64,000 bases of DNA from an uncultured Eubacteriales bacterium (GTDB taxonomy: Bacteria > Bacillota > Clostridia > Christensenellales > Aristaeellaceae). The stretch lies in the NCBI GenBank assembly GCA_900318145.1, contig ONJM01000007.1, forward strand, positions 1 through 64,000, written 5' to 3'. The notes under the pieces were generated by a model, which did not search any database, was not told the origin of the DNA, and saw only the letters and a program-made list of their open reading frames with translations. The translations under genes and the position numbers were made by a program. Positions 17,749-28,984 of the stretch are shown piece by piece. The stretch's first letter is position 1. Each line of letters begins with the position of its first letter.

Positions 17749-20250
17749 ATGAAGAAACTTTTAGCCCTGGTACTGGCTCTCTGCATGATGGCGGGTGTTG
17801 TATCCGCCCTGGCAGAAGGTTTTACCCCTGCTGAGTCCTATGACGTCGGCGAACGAAAGTTTGACGGCGGCGCGATCACCACTGCCAAAGCCGAAGCCGG
17901 CGGCGGTGAAGTGGACACCGAGCGGTATGCCGGCGTGGAAGGAAAGGATTATACCGATGAAAAGGAATATACCTTCCATGACTACATCACCGCCACCACC
18001 ACGATGGACTGGAACCCCCACACCTGGGAGACCAACGATGACTCCAGCGTGCTGGACATGATGACCATGGGATTCTATGGCATCGTGCTGAACAAGGACA
18101 AGTCCGGCTACGCCATCACCTGTGAAATGGCTGCCGAGCTGCCTGTCGACGTGACTGCTGAATACGCCGGCAAATTCGGTGTCGCCGAAGGTGAAACCGC
18201 GAAGGCCTGGCGGATCGCCCTGAATCAGGACGCTACCTGGGAAAACGGTGAGAAGATCACAGCTGACGACTACATCTACTCCATGCAGCAGCAGCTGAAC
18301 CCCAAGATGAAGAACCGCCGCGCGGACAGCTACTATGCCGGCGATATGATCATCTACAACGCCAAGAACTATCTGTATGCCGGTGAGACCGCCTACAGTC
18401 TGATTGAGGATGACGCGGCGAACCTGGTTGCCGCCGGAACCGATGTTTATCTGGATATGAGCTTCTGGGGCCTGGTCGGTGCCGCCGACGCGGAAGGCAA
18501 CGCCGCTCCCCAGTATGTGAGCATTGCCGATGAAACCATGTACCGTGACGCGGGCGTGGAAGAAGGACAGCCTGAAGACTGGGTTTCCGCGAAGTACATC
18601 TTCGACACCTATCTGGCTGCCGGTATGCCCTACGAATCCTATGCCGCACAGTACCTGTACACCGCGAGCATCGCTCCCGAAACCTCCTGGGACGATGTCG
18701 GTCTCGTCAAGGTGGACGATTACACCATCGACCTGATTCTGGAAAAGGCCATGGAAGAGCCCGCCTTCTATATGCCCTACAACCTGAGCTCCAACTGGCT
18801 GGTTTACAAGCCCATGTATGAAGAGCTGAAGGTGTTCACCGACGCGGACGGCAAGGAAGTTGCCACCGAAGAGGAAGCCACGACCGTTACCTCCAAGTAC
18901 ATGAAGGACGTCGATTCCTCCTTCTCCTACGGCCCCTACAAAATCACCTACTTCGAGCTGGATAAGCAGATCAGCTACGAGCGGAATCCCGAGTGGTACG
19001 GTTACCGTGACGGAAAGCATACCGGTATGTACCAGACGGACAAGGTTTCCGTTACCGTGCTGGGCGAGCATGCCACCCAGATCCTGACCTTCGAGGCCGG
19101 CAAGCTGGACGGCGTCAGCCTGCAGCAGGAAGACATGGCGAAGTATGCCTCTTCCGATTATATCGTATACGAGCCGCAGAGCTATACCACCAAGATTTCC
19201 TTCAACACCAACTACGAGAAGCTGCTTGAGCACGGCACCGGAAGCCAGATCCTCGTGATCGATGAATTCCGTGAAGCTTTCGCGCTGTGCCTCGACCGTG
19301 AGCATTTCGCGACTGCCTACACTTCCGCCGGTACCGCCGGTTTCGGCCTGCTGAACTATCAGTATGTGTACGATCCCTTCACCGGTGCTGCCTACCGTGA
19401 CAGCGAAGGCGCCAAGGAAGCCATGGTGGACCTGTACGGCCTGAGCTACGGCGAAGGTTCCGACTATGCCACACTGGATGAAGCGTATGCCGCGATGACC
19501 GGCTACGACATGGAACTGGCCCGCAAGAAGATGGCTGAAGCGTATGACAAGGCCGTTGCAGCCGGTATCTGGGACGGCGAAACGCCCCTGACCATCGACT
19601 TCCGCGTTTATCAGAACGACACCATCTATGTGCAGATGTTCACCTATCTGAACGAGCAGCTGCAGGCTGCCTGCGAAGGCACCGGCTTCGAGGGCAAGGT
19701 ATCCCTGACCATGACTGTGGACGCTGACTACTACAACACCATGTATTCCGGTGCTGCGGACAGCATCTTCACCACCTGGGGCGGCGCGGCCATGGCACCC
19801 TTCACCATGATGAACCAGTGCTACACGGACGCCGCGGACGGCACCGGCAACCAGATGGAATACGGCTTCGATACCGACAAGATCGAGCTGACCATCACTG
19901 TTGACGGAAATGCTGTGACGGATAGCCTGCGCAACTGGACCAACTGGGTCGGCGGCAGCACGGATGCGGCGCTGGTTGCCAACCTGGAAGGCGTCCTGGG
20001 CAAGTTCAGCACTTATGACTACTCCACCCGCTGCGCATTCCTGGCCGCCTGCGAGAAGTGCTTCCTGAGCTACTACACCACCACCCCGGTCTACTACCGG
20101 AACGTGGCGTCCCTGCACAGCCAGCGCATCGAGTACCCGACCTATCAGTACGTTATGAACGTAGGTTTCGGCGGTCTCGCCTACTACACCTACACCATGG
20201 ACGATGCTGAGTGGGATGCTTTCATTGCCAACAACGAGCTGAAGTATTAA
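17749..20250 (+). CDS. Oligopeptide ABC importer 2, large substrate-binding protein (SBP family 5)
   Basis: 833 residues, clearly longer than the 500-650 usual for this family. The signal peptide MKKLLALVLALCMMAGVVSALA-EGF has a Cys at residue 12, but its context (LAL-C) is not a lipobox, so it is predicted to be cleaved by signal peptidase I. Family-5 features include AKAWRIALNQDATWENGEKITADDY and YSYGPYKI-type segments (FSYGPYKITYFELDK). An extra N-terminal region (about 25-85) before the conserved fold contributes to the length. AAAAGGAGGA precedes the ATG. It would supply substrate to the enlarged transporter encoded directly downstream. Confidence 0.88.
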   Translation: MKKLLALVLALCMMAGVVSALAEGFTPAESYDVGERKFDGGAITTAKAEAGGGEVDTERYAGVEGKDYTDEKEYTFHDYITATTTMDWNPHTWETNDDSSVLDMMTMGFYGIVLNKDKSGYAITCEMAAELPVDVTAEYAGKFGVAEGETAKAWRIALNQDATWENGEKITADDYIYSMQQQLNPKMKNRRADSYYAGDMIIYNAKNYLYAGETAYSLIEDDAANLVAAGTDVYLDMSFWGLVGAADAEGNAAPQYVSIADETMYRDAGVEEGQPEDWVSAKYIFDTYLAAGMPYESYAAQYLYTASIAPETSWDDVGLVKVDDYTIDLILEKAMEEPAFYMPYNLSSNWLVYKPMYEELKVFTDADGKEVATEEEATTVTSKYMKDVDSSFSYGPYKITYFELDKQISYERNPEWYGYRDGKHTGMYQTDKVSVTVLGEHATQILTFEAGKLDGVSLQQEDMAKYASSDYIVYEPQSYTTKISFNTNYEKLLEHGTGSQILVIDEFREAFALCLDREHFATAYTSAGTAGFGLLNYQYVYDPFTGAAYRDSEGAKEAMVDLYGLSYGEGSDYATLDEAYAAMTGYDMELARKKMAEAYDKAVAAGIWDGETPLTIDFRVYQNDTIYVQMFTYLNEQLQAACEGTGFEGKVSLTMTVDADYYNTMYSGAADSIFTTWGGAAMAPFTMMNQCYTDAADGTGNQMEYGFDTDKIELTITVDGNAVTDSLRNWTNWVGGSTDAALVANLEGVLGKFSTYDYSTRCAFLAACEKCFLSYYTTTPVYYRNVASLHSQRIEYPTYQYVMNVGFGGLAYYTYTMDDAEWDAFIANNELKY

Positions 20251-20406: not shown

Positions 20407-21366
20407 ATGACCAAGTATGTGGTCAAGCGGATTCTGCTCATGTTCCTGACGCTTTTTGTCATCATGACGATCTGCTTTATCCTGATCAAGCTTCTGCCGC
20501 TTCCCCTGATCAAGAGCATTAACAAGGACGTAGCACTTCAGGCCAAGAAGTATGAGCAGCGCGGTTACTATAAGCCCATCATGGTTCAGTACTATAACTT
20601 CTGGAAGAATGTTCTTACCAGCTGGGACTGGGGAATGGGCGAGCAGCTGTATACAGACCGTGCCGTATGGCCTGTTATGATGCAGAAGCTTCCCTATACA
20701 GTGCTGGTCAATCTCTATTCCATCCTGATCGCAATTCCGCTGGGGCTGATTTTTGGCATCTATGCGGCGCTGAAGAAAAACAAATGGCAGGACAACGTGA
20801 TTTCCACGCTGGTCATGGTGTTCACTTCGGTACCCAGCTACGTATATGCCTTCCTGGTGCAGTACTTTCTGTGCTTTAAACTGAAGTGGTTTAATCCGGT
20901 CGTGCTGTCGCAGGATCAGGCGCCGCTGATGAGCTGGAAAATGTTTATGTCCATGGTTCCGGCCGTACTCTCCCTGGGCTTCGGCGTGGTCGCGGGCCTG
21001 ACGCGTTACACCCGCGCGGAACTGAGCGAGGTGCTGACGGGCGATTATATGCTGCTGGCGCGTACAAAGGGCCTTACCAAACGGCAGGCCATTTCCCGCC
21101 ATGCCATGCGCAACGCCATGGTAGTTATCCTGCCTATGATCATCGGTGAATTTATCGGCATTCTGGGCGGCTCCCTGATTATTGAAAAAATCTTCGCGAT
21201 TCCGGGAATCGGAAATGTCTTTGTTGATTCCATTGCTGTGAAGGACTACAATTTCTTCATGGCGGAAACTTTCTTCTACACATTCATCGGTCTGGCCTCC
21301 GGCATTCTGACCGATATCAGCTACGGTTTTATCGATCCGCGCATCCGCATGGGTTCCAAGAAATGA
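20407..21366 (+). CDS. Oligopeptide ABC importer 2, OppB-like permease
   Basis: 319 residues; MTKYVVKRILLMFLTLFVIM is the first OppB membrane helix. Five more helices follow, with the coupling segment LLARTKGLTKRQAISRHAMRNAM and the ending YGFIDPRIRMGSKK typical of the family. Its size is standard, in contrast with its partner genes. GGAGAGAG precedes the ATG. It pairs with the OppC-like protein whose gene starts 30 bases after its stop. Confidence 0.9.
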   Translation: MTKYVVKRILLMFLTLFVIMTICFILIKLLPLPLIKSINKDVALQAKKYEQRGYYKPIMVQYYNFWKNVLTSWDWGMGEQLYTDRAVWPVMMQKLPYTVLVNLYSILIAIPLGLIFGIYAALKKNKWQDNVISTLVMVFTSVPSYVYAFLVQYFLCFKLKWFNPVVLSQDQAPLMSWKMFMSMVPAVLSLGFGVVAGLTRYTRAELSEVLTGDYMLLARTKGLTKRQAISRHAMRNAMVVILPMIIGEFIGILGGSLIIEKIFAIPGIGNVFVDSIAVKDYNFFMAETFFYTFIGLASGILTDISYGFIDPRIRMGSKK

Positions 21367-21396: not shown

Positions 21397-22938
21397 ATGC
21401 AGAATGAATTAAACGGGCAGTTTCCCAAGATTCCGAAGGAGAAACTGACGCTGATCCAGCGGGATCGCCGGATCACAGACCAGAAGCTGGAAACCAAGTC
21501 CATCGGTTATTTCAAGGACGTATGGCTCCGGTTCAAAAAAGATAAGAGTGCCGTGGTCGCCTTTGTGCTGATCATGATCCTGCTGCTGTTTTCCATGTTT
21601 GTTCCGTTTATTTCCCCTATGGACGTCAGTTTCCGGGAGGAAAGCTTTGCCTATATGCTTCCCAAGATGTTTAACAATACGGGGTTCTGGGACGGGACAT
21701 TTGCTACAGAACAGACCCAGGGCGGTTTTGACATTCTCCGGGGGATCGGCGTCGAGAGCGGGCTGTCTCCCGTGGTCGGGACAGTCCGGGAATCCGAGGC
21801 TTCCGACGGAACAAAGCGCTACAGTTTCCGGCAGGATTCCTACTGTACGCCGGGATACGAAATCAAGGTGTTGGGCGAAAAGGAATACAAAGCCATGATG
21901 GCTTATCAGGATGAACACAACATCCAGATCCTTTATCCGGTTCCCGTAACCTGGAATGTAAAATTCAACGGTTACAGCGCCGGGAACTACTGGTATAAGC
22001 TGAAAGACGAAAGACCGACGTCCAGCGGCGAAGCCGTTTATGATGAAAACGGAAACTATATTCCCAACTATCTGACCAGCGACAATCCGAACGCCGGAGA
22101 CTATACCAGCCTCCGCCTGCCGGGAGACAACGGCGGGGAAGACGGAAAGACATGGTATACCTACGCGATGAAGGTGCAGGGCGGATACCGCGTCCGGATC
22201 AACCTGTATAACGATTTCATTTTCCGGAACGGCTTTAAGCCCGTGTTCGTTTTCGGTACGAACGTCTACGGACAGGATATCTTCTCCTGCCTGGCTTACG
22301 GCGGCCAGCTGAGCTTTATTCTGGCGATCAGCGTGTGCCTGATCAACTTTGTGATCGGCGCAGTGTACGGCGCTGTCGAAGGATATTACGGCGGAACCAC
22401 CGACATCGTGATGGAACGTATTTCCGATATCCTGGGTTACATGCCGTTTATCGTGATCGCAACCCTGTTCAAGCTTCATCTGCAGGAGCAGGTCGGTCCG
22501 CTGTTCTCCCTGCTCTTCGCTTTCGTTCTGACCGGGTGGATCGGCATGGCAGCCCGGGTACGGATGCAGTTCTACCGGTTCAAAGGACATGAATATGTAC
22601 TGGCTGCCCGGACACTGGGCGCACGGGACCGCCGCCTGATTTTCAAACATATTTTCCCGAACTCCCTCGGAACGATTATTACCGGAAGCATCCTGGCCAT
22701 TCCGGCTGTGATTTTCTCCGAATCCATGCTGAGCTATCTGGGGATTATCGATCTGAACACATCCTCCATGACTTCCATCGGCACCATGCTTTCCAACGGG
22801 CATGACTGCCTGCGTACGTATCCGCATGTTATTCTGTTTCCGGCCCTGTTTATCTCAATTCTTGAGATTTCATTCAACCTGTTCGGCAACGGACTGCGGG
22901 ACGCGTTCAATCCTTCTCTGAGAGGAGCGGAAGACTGA
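21397..22938 (+). CDS. Oligopeptide ABC importer 2, OppC-like permease with enlarged outer domain
   Basis: 513 residues versus about 300-350 for usual OppC. Helix 1 is at about 51-74 (SAVVAFVLIMILLLFSMFVP). The canonical FGTNVYGQDIFS motif starts only at residue 286. In importer 1 the same distance (helix start to FGTN) is 46 residues, here 235, so about 190 residues are added in the first extracytoplasmic loop. The added part is rich in Tyr, Gly, Asn and Asp and looks like a folded, beta-rich domain. The remaining helices and coupling loop (LAARTLGARDRRLIFKHIFPN) are normal. AAAGGAG precedes the start. The next gene begins one base after its stop codon. Confidence 0.88.
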   Translation: MQNELNGQFPKIPKEKLTLIQRDRRITDQKLETKSIGYFKDVWLRFKKDKSAVVAFVLIMILLLFSMFVPFISPMDVSFREESFAYMLPKMFNNTGFWDGTFATEQTQGGFDILRGIGVESGLSPVVGTVRESEASDGTKRYSFRQDSYCTPGYEIKVLGEKEYKAMMAYQDEHNIQILYPVPVTWNVKFNGYSAGNYWYKLKDERPTSSGEAVYDENGNYIPNYLTSDNPNAGDYTSLRLPGDNGGEDGKTWYTYAMKVQGGYRVRINLYNDFIFRNGFKPVFVFGTNVYGQDIFSCLAYGGQLSFILAISVCLINFVIGAVYGAVEGYYGGTTDIVMERISDILGYMPFIVIATLFKLHLQEQVGPLFSLLFAFVLTGWIGMAARVRMQFYRFKGHEYVLAARTLGARDRRLIFKHIFPNSLGTIITGSILAIPAVIFSESMLSYLGIIDLNTSSMTSIGTMLSNGHDCLRTYPHVILFPALFISILEISFNLFGNGLRDAFNPSLRGAED

Positions 22939-22939
22939 T

Positions 22940-24802
22940 ATGGCAAAAAAACTTGAAGTCAGAAATCTGACAATCTCCTTCCGCACAAATAACGGCGCTG
23001 TACGCGCAGTGCGCGATGTCTCCTTTGATCTGGAGGAAGGAGAAACGCTGGCGATTGCCGGCGAAAGCGGCAGCGGAAAATCCGTTACCACCCGCGCTGT
23101 TATGGGTATTCTGGCAGGAAACGCCATTGTGGAAGGCGGCGAGATTATCTATGACGGCAGGGATCTGCTGAAGATCCCTGAGGAAGAATTCCATACGCTC
23201 CGCGGCCACAAGCTTAGTATGGTTTTCCAGGATCCGCTCAGTGCGCTGAATCCGATCATGCGTATCGGAAAACAGCTGACGGAAGCCATGATTCTGAACA
23301 ACAAGGAACGCCGGGCGGACGGAAAGAAGCTGTACACGCATATGATCCGGACGCTGGAGAGCAATGTTCATGAAGCCGACGGGGCAGCGGACGCCAAAAA
23401 GCTGACGGAACAGATCAACCAGATTCTGAATACCAGCGCCCGGATGGAGAACGAGTGGAATACCGGATTTGAAAACATGGAGGAGCTTTTTCCAGACCGC
23501 GGGGAAAAGCCCGATTTCCTGCGCCTCGCATATGAAAAAGTCTCCGGAGAAACAGGAAACGCATATGACGAGAAATTCCTGAAACCGTACCTGGACGCGG
23601 CGAAAAAGGCGGTCGCACACGCCAACGGAAACGCCAGATCCGCCCGCCAGCTTGCCTGTGAAAGGCTTGAGAGTGCATTGAAGGCCTTTGAAAAAACGCC
23701 GCTGGATCCGGGCGAATGCAGAAACGCGGCGAAGGCCGCCTCGGATGCCGTCGAAAAGGCAATCGATCCGCTGGCACTGGAAAAGGACAATATGGCGTAC
23801 GTCTACCGCAGTTCCATGGAAGCGGGCATCAACCGCTATGCCAAAGGGCTGCAGACCAACCCGAAGGAAGAAAAGCGCTATGCTTCCGACACCAAAAAAC
23901 ATGACCGCCTCGTCGCCAAAGGAAAATTCGCGCCTTCCGTTGTACCGCTGAACCTGGTGGATATGCAGCGGGTACAGAATGAAATGGTTTCCATGACCCG
24001 GGAACTGGAACAGCATCTGCGCGAGATTCCGGAGGATCTGACAGACCAGGAACTGGAAAAGCGGGCGACGGATCTGCTGTATTTCCTCCAGTCCTGTGCA
24101 TGCAACCGGGATTATCAGCTCAGTAAAGCGACCGCAAAACACCACGCCATCAAAATCATGCGCGAGGTAGGTATCCCGGAGCCGGAGAAGCGCTATCACC
24201 AGTACCCCTTCGAGTTTTCCGGCGGTATGCGGCAGCGTATCGTAATCGCAATCGCACTGTCCGCCAATCCGGATATTCTGATTTGCGATGAACCTACCAC
24301 GGCGCTGGACGTGACCATCCAGGCGCAGATTCTGGAACTGATCAACAATCTGAAAAAAGAACGGAATCTTTCCGTTATTTTCATCACACACGACCTGGGC
24401 GTTGTGGCAAACATGGCGGACAAGATCGCGATCATGTACGCTGGAAAGATCGTGGAATACGGTACAGCGGATGATGTTTTCTACGACCCGCGGCATCCCT
24501 ACACGTGGGCACTGCTGTCCTCCATGCCGGACCTGGAGACCAAGGAAAAACTCGAAGCCATTCCCGGGACGCCGCCCAACATGATTCTGCCGCCGAAGGG
24601 AGACGCTTTCGCGGCACGAAATCAGTACGCCCTGGAAATCGACCTGGAAGAACAACCGCCCATGTTCCGGATCTCGGATACGCATTCAGCGGCTACCTGG
24701 CTGCTGCATCCGGACGCGCCGAAGGTTGATCCGCCGGCAATCGTGCGGGAGCGTATTGAACGGATGCTCCGGAAAGAACAGCAGGGAGGAGTGCAGGCAT
24801 GA
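22940..24802 (+). CDS. Oligopeptide ABC importer 2, OppD-like ATPase with a 270-residue insertion
   Basis: 620 residues versus about 330 for OppD. Walker A GESGSGKS is at 41-48, the Q-loop Gln is 97 (VFQDPLSALNP), signature FSGGMRQR at 426-433, Walker B ILICDEP about 446-452 and the switch His at 474. The Q-loop to signature distance is 329 residues; in the first domain of the importer 1 ATPase it is 58. The added part (about 127-396) is rich in Lys, Glu and Ala, predicted helical, and emerges from the helical subdomain that faces the permease. All catalytic motifs are intact. A C-terminal oligopeptide-transporter segment (530-600) is present. The stop overlaps the next start (ATGA). Confidence 0.92.
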   Translation: MAKKLEVRNLTISFRTNNGAVRAVRDVSFDLEEGETLAIAGESGSGKSVTTRAVMGILAGNAIVEGGEIIYDGRDLLKIPEEEFHTLRGHKLSMVFQDPLSALNPIMRIGKQLTEAMILNNKERRADGKKLYTHMIRTLESNVHEADGAADAKKLTEQINQILNTSARMENEWNTGFENMEELFPDRGEKPDFLRLAYEKVSGETGNAYDEKFLKPYLDAAKKAVAHANGNARSARQLACERLESALKAFEKTPLDPGECRNAAKAASDAVEKAIDPLALEKDNMAYVYRSSMEAGINRYAKGLQTNPKEEKRYASDTKKHDRLVAKGKFAPSVVPLNLVDMQRVQNEMVSMTRELEQHLREIPEDLTDQELEKRATDLLYFLQSCACNRDYQLSKATAKHHAIKIMREVGIPEPEKRYHQYPFEFSGGMRQRIVIAIALSANPDILICDEPTTALDVTIQAQILELINNLKKERNLSVIFITHDLGVVANMADKIAIMYAGKIVEYGTADDVFYDPRHPYTWALLSSMPDLETKEKLEAIPGTPPNMILPPKGDAFAARNQYALEIDLEEQPPMFRISDTHSAATWLLHPDAPKVDPPAIVRERIERMLRKEQQGGVQA

Positions 24803-27468
24803 AAAGCGCGAAGATCATAAAACGCCTCCTGCGGGTGATGCGTGCAGCCGGCACGGTGCTGATCCTGACAGCCCTGGTACTGTTCCTGTACGCTGTAATC
24901 AACACGAATTCATTCTGGAGCAAGACCACGGACAAAGGCGAACGCGCCTATAAAACGAAGCCGTGGGAAGACTTCTTCAATGACATGCAGGCCTATGACG
25001 TGGACGGAACCTTCATGCGCCTGGATTTTGACGCGAGGTATTTCCGCGCGCTGAGCAGCGCCGCGCGGAAATGTATTGAACTGAAGAGCCAGACGGGCAA
25101 TACGAAATCCGAAGAGGATATGATCCTGGAAACCTCGGAAGCCGCTAAACCGTATTTCGCGGATTATTACCGGCGTGCTGAGGCAAACAATGAAAGGGAT
25201 CACCGGGCACGGGAAATGGAAGAAATCCGCGGATGGTTTGAGGACAAACTGGACGCGGCAGCTTTCGTCAACGCAAACAACAACGTTGAGGAGATCCTTG
25301 AAGCTCACGAGATTGCGGAAATTGTGCAATACCTGGAAGGGCTTTATTCGCCTCCGCCCAAGCTGGCAAAGAAGGGACTCAAACCGCCGGAGCAGAAAAC
25401 CGCCTTTGAAGGTTTCTATCAGACGATCCTGGAAGAGCACGGCGAAGAAGCGGGCAGCTGGTTTGAGTTCATGAGCACGGTCCGCACCCTTGCGGAGCAG
25501 GATCTGGCGGCCGGTGTAAAGATTTCCGAAGCGAAGACCTGGTATGCGGAAAACTTTGATTACGAAAAGTATCTGGCAGCGCTGGAAGAGGTCCGGAAAC
25601 AGGAGAAAAATGAGCAAAAGGAAAATTTCCTGATCAGCCTGATGGATCTCTGTGAAAAGAAAGCCGCCGGAGGCGACGCGGATTTCCGCGCGTTCCTGAA
25701 GAACACGTTTGAAACGCTGCGGGGCAAGTATCCGGAAGAACCCGCCGCGGCGGACGAGCATGTGTTCCTGCTTGCGGTGAAGGAACTGAACGAGACAATG
25801 CTGCCGGCAGAGAACACAGCCATGGATGAAACGGCTGCTGAGGGAGAAACGGAAGGAGAATCCGCTGCCGCAGAAGAAGCCGGTGAAACGGAAACGGTGA
25901 AACCGGCGGCCCGGGGCGGCAGCTTTGACGGATCCTATGCCCGGATTTACGAGAAAATGCAGGAAATCAAAGCGGATCTGGAGACAAACAATCCGCAGCA
26001 CCGGGAGCAGGTGCTTGCCACAAAAGTGGCGGAAGAAGCCCAGGTCCGGATTTCCATCGGTTCCGTTGTCTGCACATTCTGGGCTGTGGTTTCCAGGTAT
26101 GCGCTGCTGTTTATCATCGGAGCCTGCCTGGTGATTGTCGGCCTTGCCGGCGGACGGGTACAGGAAAATATCCTGCTGCGGAATGAAATAAATGCGGAAG
26201 CGGAAAAAGACACCGCCCGGAACGGAACCGAGACCGGGGATGATATCAGCGATGAGGAGAGGAACGCGCTGCTGCGGGTTTCCCATCTGAAGCAGTATTT
26301 CCGGTCTGGGAGCTATATCAACAAAGCGGTGGATGATATCAGCTTCTATGTGAAAAAAGGTGAAGTTTTCGGCCTGGTGGGTGAAAGCGGCTGCGGGAAG
26401 ACTACTACCGGCCGGACGATCATCAACCTGTACGATCCCACCGAGGGCGACGTTTACTTCGAAGGCGTGCGGATTTCCTCCAACCTGAACGGTTATCCGG
26501 TGCTTCGCAGAAGCCTGCGGAACGATTATAAACAGGCCTGCATGGCGGCGAAAACCGATGAGGAAAAACGGGAGCTGAAACAGAAACTGAAGAAACAGCT
26601 TTCCGACGCGGAAACAAACGCTATGCTTTCCCAGATCGAAAAGAAGAAAGCAACGCATTATTACCGGCAGAACCGGAAGGCGAAGCTGACGGAAGAGTTT
26701 GAACGGGAGAGCAAGGGCCTGCAGGGAGAAGCGCTGGATGCGCTGACGCGCAGGTACCATCAGGATATGAAGATTGCCGGCAAGGACAATATTATGTCCA
26801 AGATGCAGATGATCTTCCAGGATCCTATCGCGTCCATCAACCCGCGTATGACAGTTCGTGAAATCATTGCCGAAGGCCTCGTGATCCAGGGCGTCAAGGA
26901 TAAGGAATATATCAACGCGAAAGTAAACGAGATGCTGGAGCTGGTAGGTCTGGTCCGGGAGCACGCGGACCGGTATCCGCATGAGTTTTCCGGCGGCCAG
27001 CGGCAGCGTATCGGCATTGCCCGGGCGATCATCATGAATCCGGATCTGATCATTGCCGATGAACCGATTTCCGCGCTGGATGTGTCCATTCAGGCGCAGG
27101 TAATCAATCTGCTGAATGATCTGCGGAACCGGATGGGACTGACCATCATGTTCATCGCGCACAATCTGAGTGTCGTTAAGTATTTTTCCGACCGGATTGC
27201 TGTTATGTACTACGGAAAGATTGTGGAAATGACCACGTCGGACGAGCTGTTTGCGCATCCGCTGCATCCCTACACAAAATCGCTGCTGAGCGCGATTCCG
27301 TATCCCGATCCGCATTATGAGAAAACCCGGAAACGGATTGAATACAATCCGGCAGAAGCGCATGACTACAGTGTGGATAAACCAACGCTCCGCGAGATCG
27401 TTCCCGGGCACTTCATCTATTGCAATGACGCGGAGTTTGCCGCGTACCAGGAGGAACTTGCCAGATGA
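24799..27468 (+). CDS. Oligopeptide ABC importer 2, OppF-like ATPase fused to a membrane-anchored outer domain
   Basis: 889 residues versus about 310-330 for OppF. A basic N-terminus (KIIKRLLRVMR) precedes membrane helix 1 (about 16-35). Residues 36-429 are polar, helix-rich and acidic, with a low-complexity Glu/Ala stretch at 343-370. Membrane helix 2 is at about 430-452. The ATPase begins near 485: Walker A GESGCGKT 528-535, Q-loop Gln674, signature FSGGQRQR 730-737, Walker B DLIIADEP, switch His788. The positive-inside rule places both ends in the cytoplasm and the 394-residue middle part outside. A further 94 residues (about 562-665) are inserted between Walker A and the Q-loop compared with the importer 1 paralogue. 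The N-terminal half resembles no family I recognise. Confidence 0.9.
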   Translation: MKSAKIIKRLLRVMRAAGTVLILTALVLFLYAVINTNSFWSKTTDKGERAYKTKPWEDFFNDMQAYDVDGTFMRLDFDARYFRALSSAARKCIELKSQTGNTKSEEDMILETSEAAKPYFADYYRRAEANNERDHRAREMEEIRGWFEDKLDAAAFVNANNNVEEILEAHEIAEIVQYLEGLYSPPPKLAKKGLKPPEQKTAFEGFYQTILEEHGEEAGSWFEFMSTVRTLAEQDLAAGVKISEAKTWYAENFDYEKYLAALEEVRKQEKNEQKENFLISLMDLCEKKAAGGDADFRAFLKNTFETLRGKYPEEPAAADEHVFLLAVKELNETMLPAENTAMDETAAEGETEGESAAAEEAGETETVKPAARGGSFDGSYARIYEKMQEIKADLETNNPQHREQVLATKVAEEAQVRISIGSVVCTFWAVVSRYALLFIIGACLVIVGLAGGRVQENILLRNEINAEAEKDTARNGTETGDDISDEERNALLRVSHLKQYFRSGSYINKAVDDISFYVKKGEVFGLVGESGCGKTTTGRTIINLYDPTEGDVYFEGVRISSNLNGYPVLRRSLRNDYKQACMAAKTDEEKRELKQKLKKQLSDAETNAMLSQIEKKKATHYYRQNRKAKLTEEFERESKGLQGEALDALTRRYHQDMKIAGKDNIMSKMQMIFQDPIASINPRMTVREIIAEGLVIQGVKDKEYINAKVNEMLELVGLVREHADRYPHEFSGGQRQRIGIARAIIMNPDLIIADEPISALDVSIQAQVINLLNDLRNRMGLTIMFIAHNLSVVKYFSDRIAVMYYGKIVEMTTSDELFAHPLHPYTKSLLSAIPYPDPHYEKTRKRIEYNPAEAHDYSVDKPTLREIVPGHFIYCNDAEFAAYQEELAR

Positions 27469-27881
27469 AAGGCAGTTCCTGGAAGCGGTACGCGGCTGCG
27501 GCAGGACTCGGACTGGGGCTCTTCCTGATTCTGACCTTTACGCAGGGCGGATTTGTGGAAGAGGATCCTGCTGTCCGGTGGCGGATTTTCTGTGACGCGC
27601 TTTTTGTACCGGGTGTACTGCTCGCGTCCTTCGGCCTGCTGCTCTTCGCGGCGGGCGGCGGCGTGTTCGATATGCTGAAATTCGGCGTGATCAAAGCTTT
27701 CAGTGTGATTCTGCCGAAAAAAAAGCGGGAAGCGCTGCCGAGGACCTTTTTCGATTTCAAGACGGAGCGGGAAGCCAGGGAAAGGGCAAAGACCGGACAT
27801 CTGCTGATCACCGGTCTGGTTTTCCTGGCGCTGGCCGCGCTGGCGCTGGTTATGTACAGCCAGTATGACCAGATGCTGTAA
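27465..27881 (+). CDS. Small membrane protein, DUF3899-like
   Basis: 138 residues, start overlapping the ATPase stop (ATGA), so translation is coupled with importer 2. Three hydrophobic segments: about 10-25, 44-66 (ALFVPGVLLASFGLLLFAAGGG) and 110-130, with a basic loop KKKREALPR between the second and third. The second-helix pattern and the GGGVFDMLKFGVIKAF stretch resemble DUF3899 proteins; I give that family tentatively. The function is unknown. Its place as last gene of the operon suggests an accessory or assembly role for the enlarged transporter (inference). Confidence 0.7.
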   Translation: MKGSSWKRYAAAAGLGLGLFLILTFTQGGFVEEDPAVRWRIFCDALFVPGVLLASFGLLLFAAGGGVFDMLKFGVIKAFSVILPKKKREALPRTFFDFKTEREARERAKTGHLLITGLVFLALAALALVMYSQYDQML

Positions 27882-27949: not shown

Positions 27950-28984
27950 TTATCTTGTGAGATACGCCATCAGCAGGCAGTAGGTGTTCCGCAGGCCGTC
28001 CATGTGCGTCCGTTCATAGCCGTGGCTGTTGGCAGTGCCGGGACCGATGCAGCCGTGGCGGATATCGTATCCTGCCAGCACACTGCCGTCCCCGTCGGAT
28101 CCGTAGTGCGGCGTAAACACGTCTGTTACATAGTCCACACCGGCAGCTTTCGCTGTTTCCCGCAGCTCCGATACCATTCCGCTGTGGTAGGGGAAGCGGC
28201 TGTCTTTCGCAAAAACGGAAACCAGGTGTTCATCGGAATTCTGTTCCGGCCCCGTGGGGGCGATATCCAGCGCCAGCACGTCCCGCACGCCTTCCGGCAG
28301 CCAGGCGGTGCCATGGCCGATCTCTTCATAGCAGGCAAAATAGGCGTATACTTTCCGGTTCAGGGAAACATTCTCCTCCCGGAGAGTATGCATGGCTTCC
28401 AGCAGTACCGCGGCGCAGGCCTTGTCATCGATAAACCGGCTTTTGATGTAACCGCCGGATACAGTGAACCGGTGATCCAGCGCGATATAATCCCCGGATT
28501 CAATGCCCAGCTTCCGGACATCCTCCGCGCTTTTCACCGGCAGGTCCAGCACCACGCAGACGTTTTTGCGGAAATCCCCCAGAACCGTCCGCAGCTCTTC
28601 TTCTGTCACGTGAATGGAGTTCGGAATCCGGCAGACCGTTCCGGTATATACCTCTCCGTTTCCGGCGTATACCCGGACATTTTCCGTCACGCAGTAGAAG
28701 GGATACAGCCCGCCGACCGGACAGACGTTCAGGGTGCCGTCCGCGTTGATATGCCGGACCATGAGCCCGATATCGTCCAGATGCGCCGTGACCACCAGCG
28801 GATTTCCTTCCCCGCCCAGATCCGCAAGCACACCGCCCTTATGCGTTTTCACCGGTGTAAAGCCCAGGCCGGTGATTTCCTTTGCCGTCCATTCCTCAAT
28901 GGCCCGGTACTGACCTGTCGTGGAGTCAACCGCCAGCAGCTTCTGAAAAGTTTCCAGACATCTTTTTTCATTGAATCCGTACAT
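27950..28984 (-). CDS. M42 family metalloaminopeptidase
   Basis: 344 residues, normal for M42. Two-metal ligands and catalytic residues are visible: His68 and Asp70 (AHLDDIG), Asp186/187 (FIDDKA), Glu220-Glu221 (YEEIGHG), Asp240 (ALDIAPTG) and His321 (SHGYERTHMDG). M42 enzymes form large cytoplasmic tetrahedral complexes that trim N-terminal residues from peptides, fitting the neighbouring peptide importers. GGAGGAAGA precedes the ATG. It is convergent with importer 2 and sits about 110 bases downstream of the TraX-like gene on the same strand. Confidence 0.92.
   Translation of the reverse strand: MYGFNEKRCLETFQKLLAVDSTTGQYRAIEEWTAKEITGLGFTPVKTHKGGVLADLGGEGNPLVVTAHLDDIGLMVRHINADGTLNVCPVGGLYPFYCVTENVRVYAGNGEVYTGTVCRIPNSIHVTEEELRTVLGDFRKNVCVVLDLPVKSAEDVRKLGIESGDYIALDHRFTVSGGYIKSRFIDDKACAAVLLEAMHTLREENVSLNRKVYAYFACYEEIGHGTAWLPEGVRDVLALDIAPTGPEQNSDEHLVSVFAKDSRFPYHSGMVSELRETAKAAGVDYVTDVFTPHYGSDGDGSVLAGYDIRHGCIGPGTANSHGYERTHMDGLRNTYCLLMAYLTR

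Follow-up and report, generated by a model that had tools for sequence, protein, structure and literature searches.

The ATPase subunit OppF of an Opp-type importer encoded in the window (the whole stretch of 64,000 nucleotides that was analyzed) is fused to an N-terminal half for which two membrane crossings and a domain outside the cell are predicted. Its gene (24799-27468; this and every other operon feature located below lie on the + strand) begins with ATG, encodes 889 amino acids, and was delimited using the open reading frame, family matches, hydropathy and motifs. It overlaps by four bases both oppD, whose stop is at 24802, and the DUF3899 gene, which starts at 27465. As an earlier note on this DNA had described, two helices enclose a loop of 394 residues in front of an intact ATPase. 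Hydropathy peaks at residues 16-34 (helix 1, 2.50; 24844-24900) and 429-447 (helix 2, 2.39; 26083-26139), with no other separate peak in the protein, and residues 1-15 have a net charge of +6; the two-helix topology is predicted from these peaks. Residues 35-428 (24901-26082), delimited by alignment and profile searches, form the predicted extracytoplasmic domain, or ectodomain. After a further 43 residues, the nucleotide-binding domain (residues 491-889; 26269-27465), assigned from families and motifs, carries the oligo_HPY region and all ATPase motifs: Walker A (528, GESGCGKT), Q-loop (673, FQDP), signature (730, FSGGQ), Walker B (750, LIIADEP), D-loop (758, SALD) and the switch histidine (in IAHN, 786). 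Absent from the earlier description is an insert of ∼100 residues in the sequence between Walker A and the Q-loop (about 565-660; 26491-26778, approximate limits).

The fusion gene belongs to a six-gene run, oppA-oppB-oppC-oppD-oppF-DUF3899. The run comprises oppA (17749-20250), encoding an 833-aa SBP_bac_5 binding protein with a signal peptide lacking a lipobox; the permease genes oppB (20407-21366) and oppC (21397-22938, 513 aa); the ATPase gene oppD (22940-24802, 620 aa); and, after oppF, a gene for a DUF3899 membrane protein (27465-27881) that was taken as the last of the operon. OppC has an outer loop of 213 residues between its helices 1 and 2 (21616-22254), and OppD has a cytoplasmic insert of 253 residues between Walker A and the signature (23357-24115, approximate limits). 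When OppC was compared with the PDB, only the permease core aligned at E below 0.01, not the outer loop. The operon combines an SBP_bac_5 binding protein, two BPD_transp_1 permeases and two ABC ATPases, with ATPase motifs and an oligo_HPY region, as is characteristic of Opp-type importers, which are type I ABC importers, and we infer from this family alone that peptides are the substrate. An M42 aminopeptidase gene adjoins the fusion operon (window 27953-28984), and an M3 peptidase gene adjoins a non-fusion operon in the congener G213 (L147 6026-7726); peptidase genes in this position are in keeping with peptide use.

A profile built from three rows of the N-terminal half matched 36 of the 250 family genomes searched, that of the window included, in 15 of 50 genera; among the 116 with a completeness of at least 90% and a contamination of at most 5%, 10 matched. 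In 32 of the 36 the match lies in one open frame of at least 792 aa, and in the remaining four it runs off the contig end (G537, G561 and G593) or the frame is broken (G504). Two congeners carry the fusion among 60 relatives besides the window genome. For comparison of gene neighborhoods, 33 fusion loci were used, from 31 of the 35 other matching family genomes (G537, G561, G581 and G593 were left out) and the two congeners, giving 34 with the window. Hydrophobic stretches flank the loop in 32 of these 34 frames (the window and 31 of the 33 loci), the exceptions being L081, which is broken, and L082, which is cut by the contig start. Gene order is unchanged in the 33 neighborhoods as far as the contigs reach: of all 34, OppD was found in 33, OppC in 30, OppB in 28 and OppA in 25, OppA not being visible in nine because the contig ends first.

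Searches of the congeners, and profile searches of the family and the order, revealed no case in which the ectodomain is encoded as a separate gene, an arrangement that the earlier note had named as one that would count against its proposal. In an order-wide sample (n = 396), the matches were the window genome, one more family member and one chance match. The sole ectodomain-profile match outside the family (G041, E 9e-4), considered as a possible separate gene, reads by eye as NusA and was taken as chance. These results confirm that the joining of the ATPase to a two-helix N-terminal half is real and no isolated accident. Public species genomes yielded seven loci with the domain, all titled MAG together with either Clostridia or Clostridiales; these are records already among the family matches and are not additional. 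Four of the seven titles name a ruminant gut as source (rumen of water buffalo, sheep and roe deer; goat jejunum), one other carries the label RUG11272, which we take to be that of a rumen catalogue, and two have no source in the title.

The same operon also occurs in the family without the ectodomain. With the ATPase end alone as query, 95 of the 250 family genomes gave a match of E 1e-88 or lower, many in frames of ∼300-470 aa. The other 155, including most of the congeners listed, gave none at this threshold, so the distribution of the operon in the family is patchy. Twenty-five same-family non-fusion neighborhoods, out of a larger set, were examined. Their order is A-B-C-D-F as far as visible, and BLAST found OppA in 22, OppB in 24, OppC and OppD in 25 each, and DUF3899 in 20. 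Their OppF proteins have 360-469 aa, no helices and no N-terminal extension able to hold the domain; Walker A starts within residues 40-71 (at 118 in L159 and 140 in L149), so near the N-terminus that the hydrophobic stretch is absent from all 25 frames. A 93-aa OppF fragment in L148 was not evaluable. The OppC outer loop has 208-238 residues in 22 of the 25 non-fusion operons (192, 340 and 342 in the others) and 213-255 in 29 fusion rows. In OppD, the insert measures 331-376 residues in 22 of 23 non-fusion rows, two shorter OppD frames lying outside the measurement, and 253-357 in 30 fusion rows; overall, 50 of the 53 rows fall within 318-376, with 253 in the window. Since loop and insert are common to both kinds of operon, the OppF ectodomain is the extra, an add-on to otherwise alike operons. 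The non-fusion operon L147, in a congener, has the same layout, ATPase insert, OppC loop, OppD insert and DUF3899 gene as the window, whereas its OppF, of 400 aa, lacks the helices and outer domain. In congener G213 a distance of ∼2.3 kb separates the non-fusion operon from frr-uppS; the fusion operon, which has the same orientation, stands ∼2.3 kb from frr-uppS in the window and ∼1.1 kb from it in G011, and the intervening genes differ. This suggests that one site may hold either form of the operon within one genus.

A tree of the ATPase domain was calculated from 61 rows (34 fusion, 25 non-fusion and two from outside the family). All fusions except L080 form one clade (33 of 34; support 97/98), L080 stands among the non-fusions (98/95), and two changes between fusion and non-fusion are needed. 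In L080, OppA, OppB and OppC also belong to the non-fusion type, their identities to the window proteins being 31, 59 and 48%, and its ectodomain is homologous (E 2.4e-30), on a long branch. Transfer of the domain to L080 is the simpler, unproven reading, the other being ancestral presence with several losses; note that, due to the long ectodomain branch, the two are not separable for L080.

An alignment of the ectodomain was made from 32 of the 34 fusion rows, leaving out L081 and L082. The loop has 318-414 residues, and the mean column identity of the aligned rows is 32%. G18 and G378 are invariant, and Y31, F77, R112, F120, E164, G215, G219, Y258, L262, E269, D377, W428 and L444 nearly so. 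Columns of at least 80% identity contain no His, Cys or Lys, which speaks somewhat against the ectodomain as an enzyme; with Glu, Asp, Ser and Arg present in such columns, an enzymatic role is not excluded. The earlier note had called the fold of this module unknown, and the searches bear this out. Against the PDB, profile A2 gave no matches and profile A4 six, all with E 0.27 or worse. For the 32 ectodomain members, the best Pfam match had E 0.0026 (best 25 of 59 families) and the best NCBIfam match E 0.0032 (all 25 families), both to unrelated families. That the ectodomain shares an origin with either the outer loop of OppC or the insert of OppD was considered and rejected, hhalign probabilities being just 0.1-0.5%.

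The ectodomain is likely to be located outside the cell, as the earlier note had thought probable. It contains 0.20% Cys and 10.1% K+R, low values that resemble those of the OppC outer loop (0.19% and 9.4%), unlike those of the cytoplasmic OppD insert (0.97% and 15.3%); the OppF ATPase itself has 0.79% and 15.0%. On average, 4.4 K/R and 0.1 D/E lie on the N-terminal side of helix 1 and 1.4 and 0.9 in the 15 residues after it, while 1.5 and 0.8 lie in the 15 residues before helix 2 and 3.9 and 1.5 in the 20 residues following it. These averages fit an N-in, loop-out, ATPase-in arrangement, and in 22 of 32 rows the net-charge rule is satisfied at both ends.

Binding proteins of the fusion clade differ from those of non-fusion operons by ∼48 extra residues between the signal peptide and the binding domain (in the window 17815-17958, approximate limits). 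The gap there measures 65-67 residues in the 10 fusion OppA rows measured versus 17-27 in 17 non-fusion rows. The motif FTPAxSYDxGER was found by pattern in this stretch in 19 of 22 OppA proteins of fusion operons and in 0 of 22 from non-fusion operons; L069 has a variant (by eye), L058 is cut off and L080 lacks it. The extension was considered as the docking partner of the ectodomain and rejected in that role: L080 is a counter-example and there is no co-evolution (−0.12).

None of the 22 non-fusion OppA rows of the family was flagged for a lipobox, and two of 24 fusion rows were (L076 and L080), both doubtfully; among the 24, three have no readable start and one is another binding protein. 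Outside the family, the pattern was present in five of six rows read. Two of the three other SBP_bac_5 proteins of the window genome have no lipobox, and in the third an ambiguous VASC precedes an AWAEA site. Lgt is present in the window genome; in that genome (C57/C35/C22) there are seven LGT-family matches over the cut-off, the strongest at 209 bits and the next at 74. Loss of the OppA lipid anchor as the cause of the domain was rejected because the lipobox is missing from non-fusion OppA and from two of the three other SBP_bac_5 proteins as well, and Lgt is present. The same comparison weakens the earlier proposal that the module replaces the membrane tether of OppA: the ectodomain does not appear simply to replace a lipid anchor. 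By eye, the non-fusion OppA of L137 has a hydrophobic helix at its N-terminus and a heptad-like stretch after it, and the protein may be anchored by an uncleaved helix. Omp85 was not found in the window genome (88% complete), and the host probably has a single membrane.

Distances were compared after dropping 13 of the 34 fusion rows (incomplete gene sets, broken frames, and L080). With the transporter core controlled, partial correlations of ectodomain divergence were 0.41-0.43 with the OppC outer loop, 0.25-0.35 with DUF3899, 0.17-0.27 with OppA, and −0.03 to 0.08 with the cytoplasmic OppD insert. Any co-evolution signal should be considered weak and not specific, because leave-one-out ranges overlap (OppA 0.00-0.26, DUF3899 0.20-0.39, OppD insert −0.09 to 0.31) and the OppC loop tracks the OppD insert, across the membrane, equally strongly (0.415). 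The OppB control is imperfect, with an implausibly long mean distance (1.32) that probably reflects stretches upstream of true starts.

We tentatively read the ectodomain as a non-enzymatic outer docking or scaffold module for OppA, giving this somewhat less than an even chance; that it docks OppA is possible, and we infer both this role and its position in the complex. The ATPase of OppF would dock under the permease as in other Opp importers, with the two helices beside the OppB/OppC core and the ectodomain (about 320-410 residues) held at the outer mouth, adjacent to the outer loop of OppC. Its surface would retain OppA, itself devoid of a lipid anchor, close to the translocator, perhaps together with long peptides, and the helix pair would also fix the ATPase to the complex. 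The tests of docking give a mixed picture. In its favor count the N-terminal extension of fusion-clade OppA and the higher correlation of ectodomain divergence with the OppC loop, DUF3899 and OppA than with the OppD insert. Several observations count against it. The profile search left 214 of the 250 family genomes with no match to the N-terminal half, the operon also exists in relatives that lack the ectodomain, the OppA extension is confined to one clade, and the OppA of the fusion L080 is of non-fusion type and has no extension.

The main rival, which we consider doubtful, is that the helices matter and the domain is a tolerated loop, the pair tethering and stabilizing the ATPase on the permease in place of C-terminal iron-sulfur clusters. 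Only 0-2 Cys follow HPLHPYT in OppD and OppF, leaving no four-Cys site, and the ectodomain diverges fast. The cluster is required for assembly in E. coli Dpp and M. tuberculosis Opp according to PMC12136057. However, non-fusion relatives and paired ATPases outside the family likewise have 0-2 Cys and yet are untethered, and the loop keeps its length in 32 rows, with conserved columns. Fast divergence would also fit a surface-exposed part, such as a domain anchoring the importer to something outside (cell wall or surface protease) and not to OppA. Peptidase genes, pertinent here if their products are exported, do adjoin the window operon and that of one non-fusion congener, and no wall-binding family was among the matches listed, so we regard such an anchor as unlikely. 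Two readings that would use the covalent link from domain through helix to ATPase seem improbable to us. As a sensor, the outer domain would bind a peptide or cell-wall ligand and signal through the helices; no ligand-binding family was recognized among the Pfam, NCBIfam and PDB matches listed, however, and the stretch from helix 2 to the ATPase varies in length and sequence. Alternatively, and with as little credence, the ectodomain might bind OppA or the incoming peptide, the helix pair coupling that contact directly to ATP hydrolysis and bypassing the permease. That the region is cytoplasmic or a gene-calling artefact is very improbable, the non-uniform charge rule notwithstanding, given the strong helices at both ends, the low Cys and K+R content and a single uninterrupted frame in many genomes.

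MacB-type proteins, in which the ATPase comes first and there are four helices, likewise join an ATPase, membrane helices and a large outer domain in one chain. However, neither MacB_PCD nor FtsX nor an ABC membrane domain was among the six Pfam families matched in window OppF (E up to 0.1). A helix-free ATPase subunit is usual in Opp-type importers without being strictly defining, and window OppF departs from this. The Opp/Dpp importers of E. coli (DppF, 8z1v_D) and M. tuberculosis (Rv1281c, 8j5q_D) resemble the window system in the gene set A-B-C-D-F, the ATPase motifs and oligo_HPY. Unlike them, it has an OppF with a pair of membrane helices and a predicted outer domain, the long outer loop in OppC, inserts after Walker A in OppD and OppF, and the extra DUF3899 gene, and its OppD and OppF lack the C-terminal four-Cys iron-sulfur site, which only some Opp-type members have (PMC12136057). 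The best NCBIfam scores were to minimal-mycoplasma OppD (MMSYN1_0167, 470 bits) and OppF (MMSYN1_0168, 385 bits), long models of 561 and 649 positions whose curated cut-offs, 740 and 800, lie well above these scores; window OppF is thus not assigned to the mycoplasma type (NF043078).

DUF3899 follows oppF in all 34 fusion neighborhoods, as detected by BLAST in 33 and by Pfam (E 2.7e-10) in L080. Among 348 genomes, the nearest OppF ATPases outside the family were found in 11 others; their frames are either 310-371 or 666-673 aa long. In a 249-genome sample of the phylum, four other genomes pass the DUF3899 cut-off, all within these 11: in G741 the gene lies after oppC on the same strand; in G876 and G826 it is on the opposite strand, between oppA and oppB in the former and ∼2.3 kb before oppB in the latter; and in G865 it is on another contig. 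DUF3899 thus seems to be an accessory component in this branch of Opp importers. The literature searched, in which few subscription papers were covered, held no mention of DUF3899, and the parts of it consulted described no importer ATPase with an outer domain of its own.

To our knowledge, importer ATPases are regarded as cytoplasmic. The one encoded in the window is predicted to cross the membrane two times and to carry a conserved outer domain, and close relatives have the same operon without that domain. Fusion and non-fusion forms make a natural pair through which the role of the added domain is directly testable, and the answer bears on how bacteria with unanchored binding proteins keep them near the importer.
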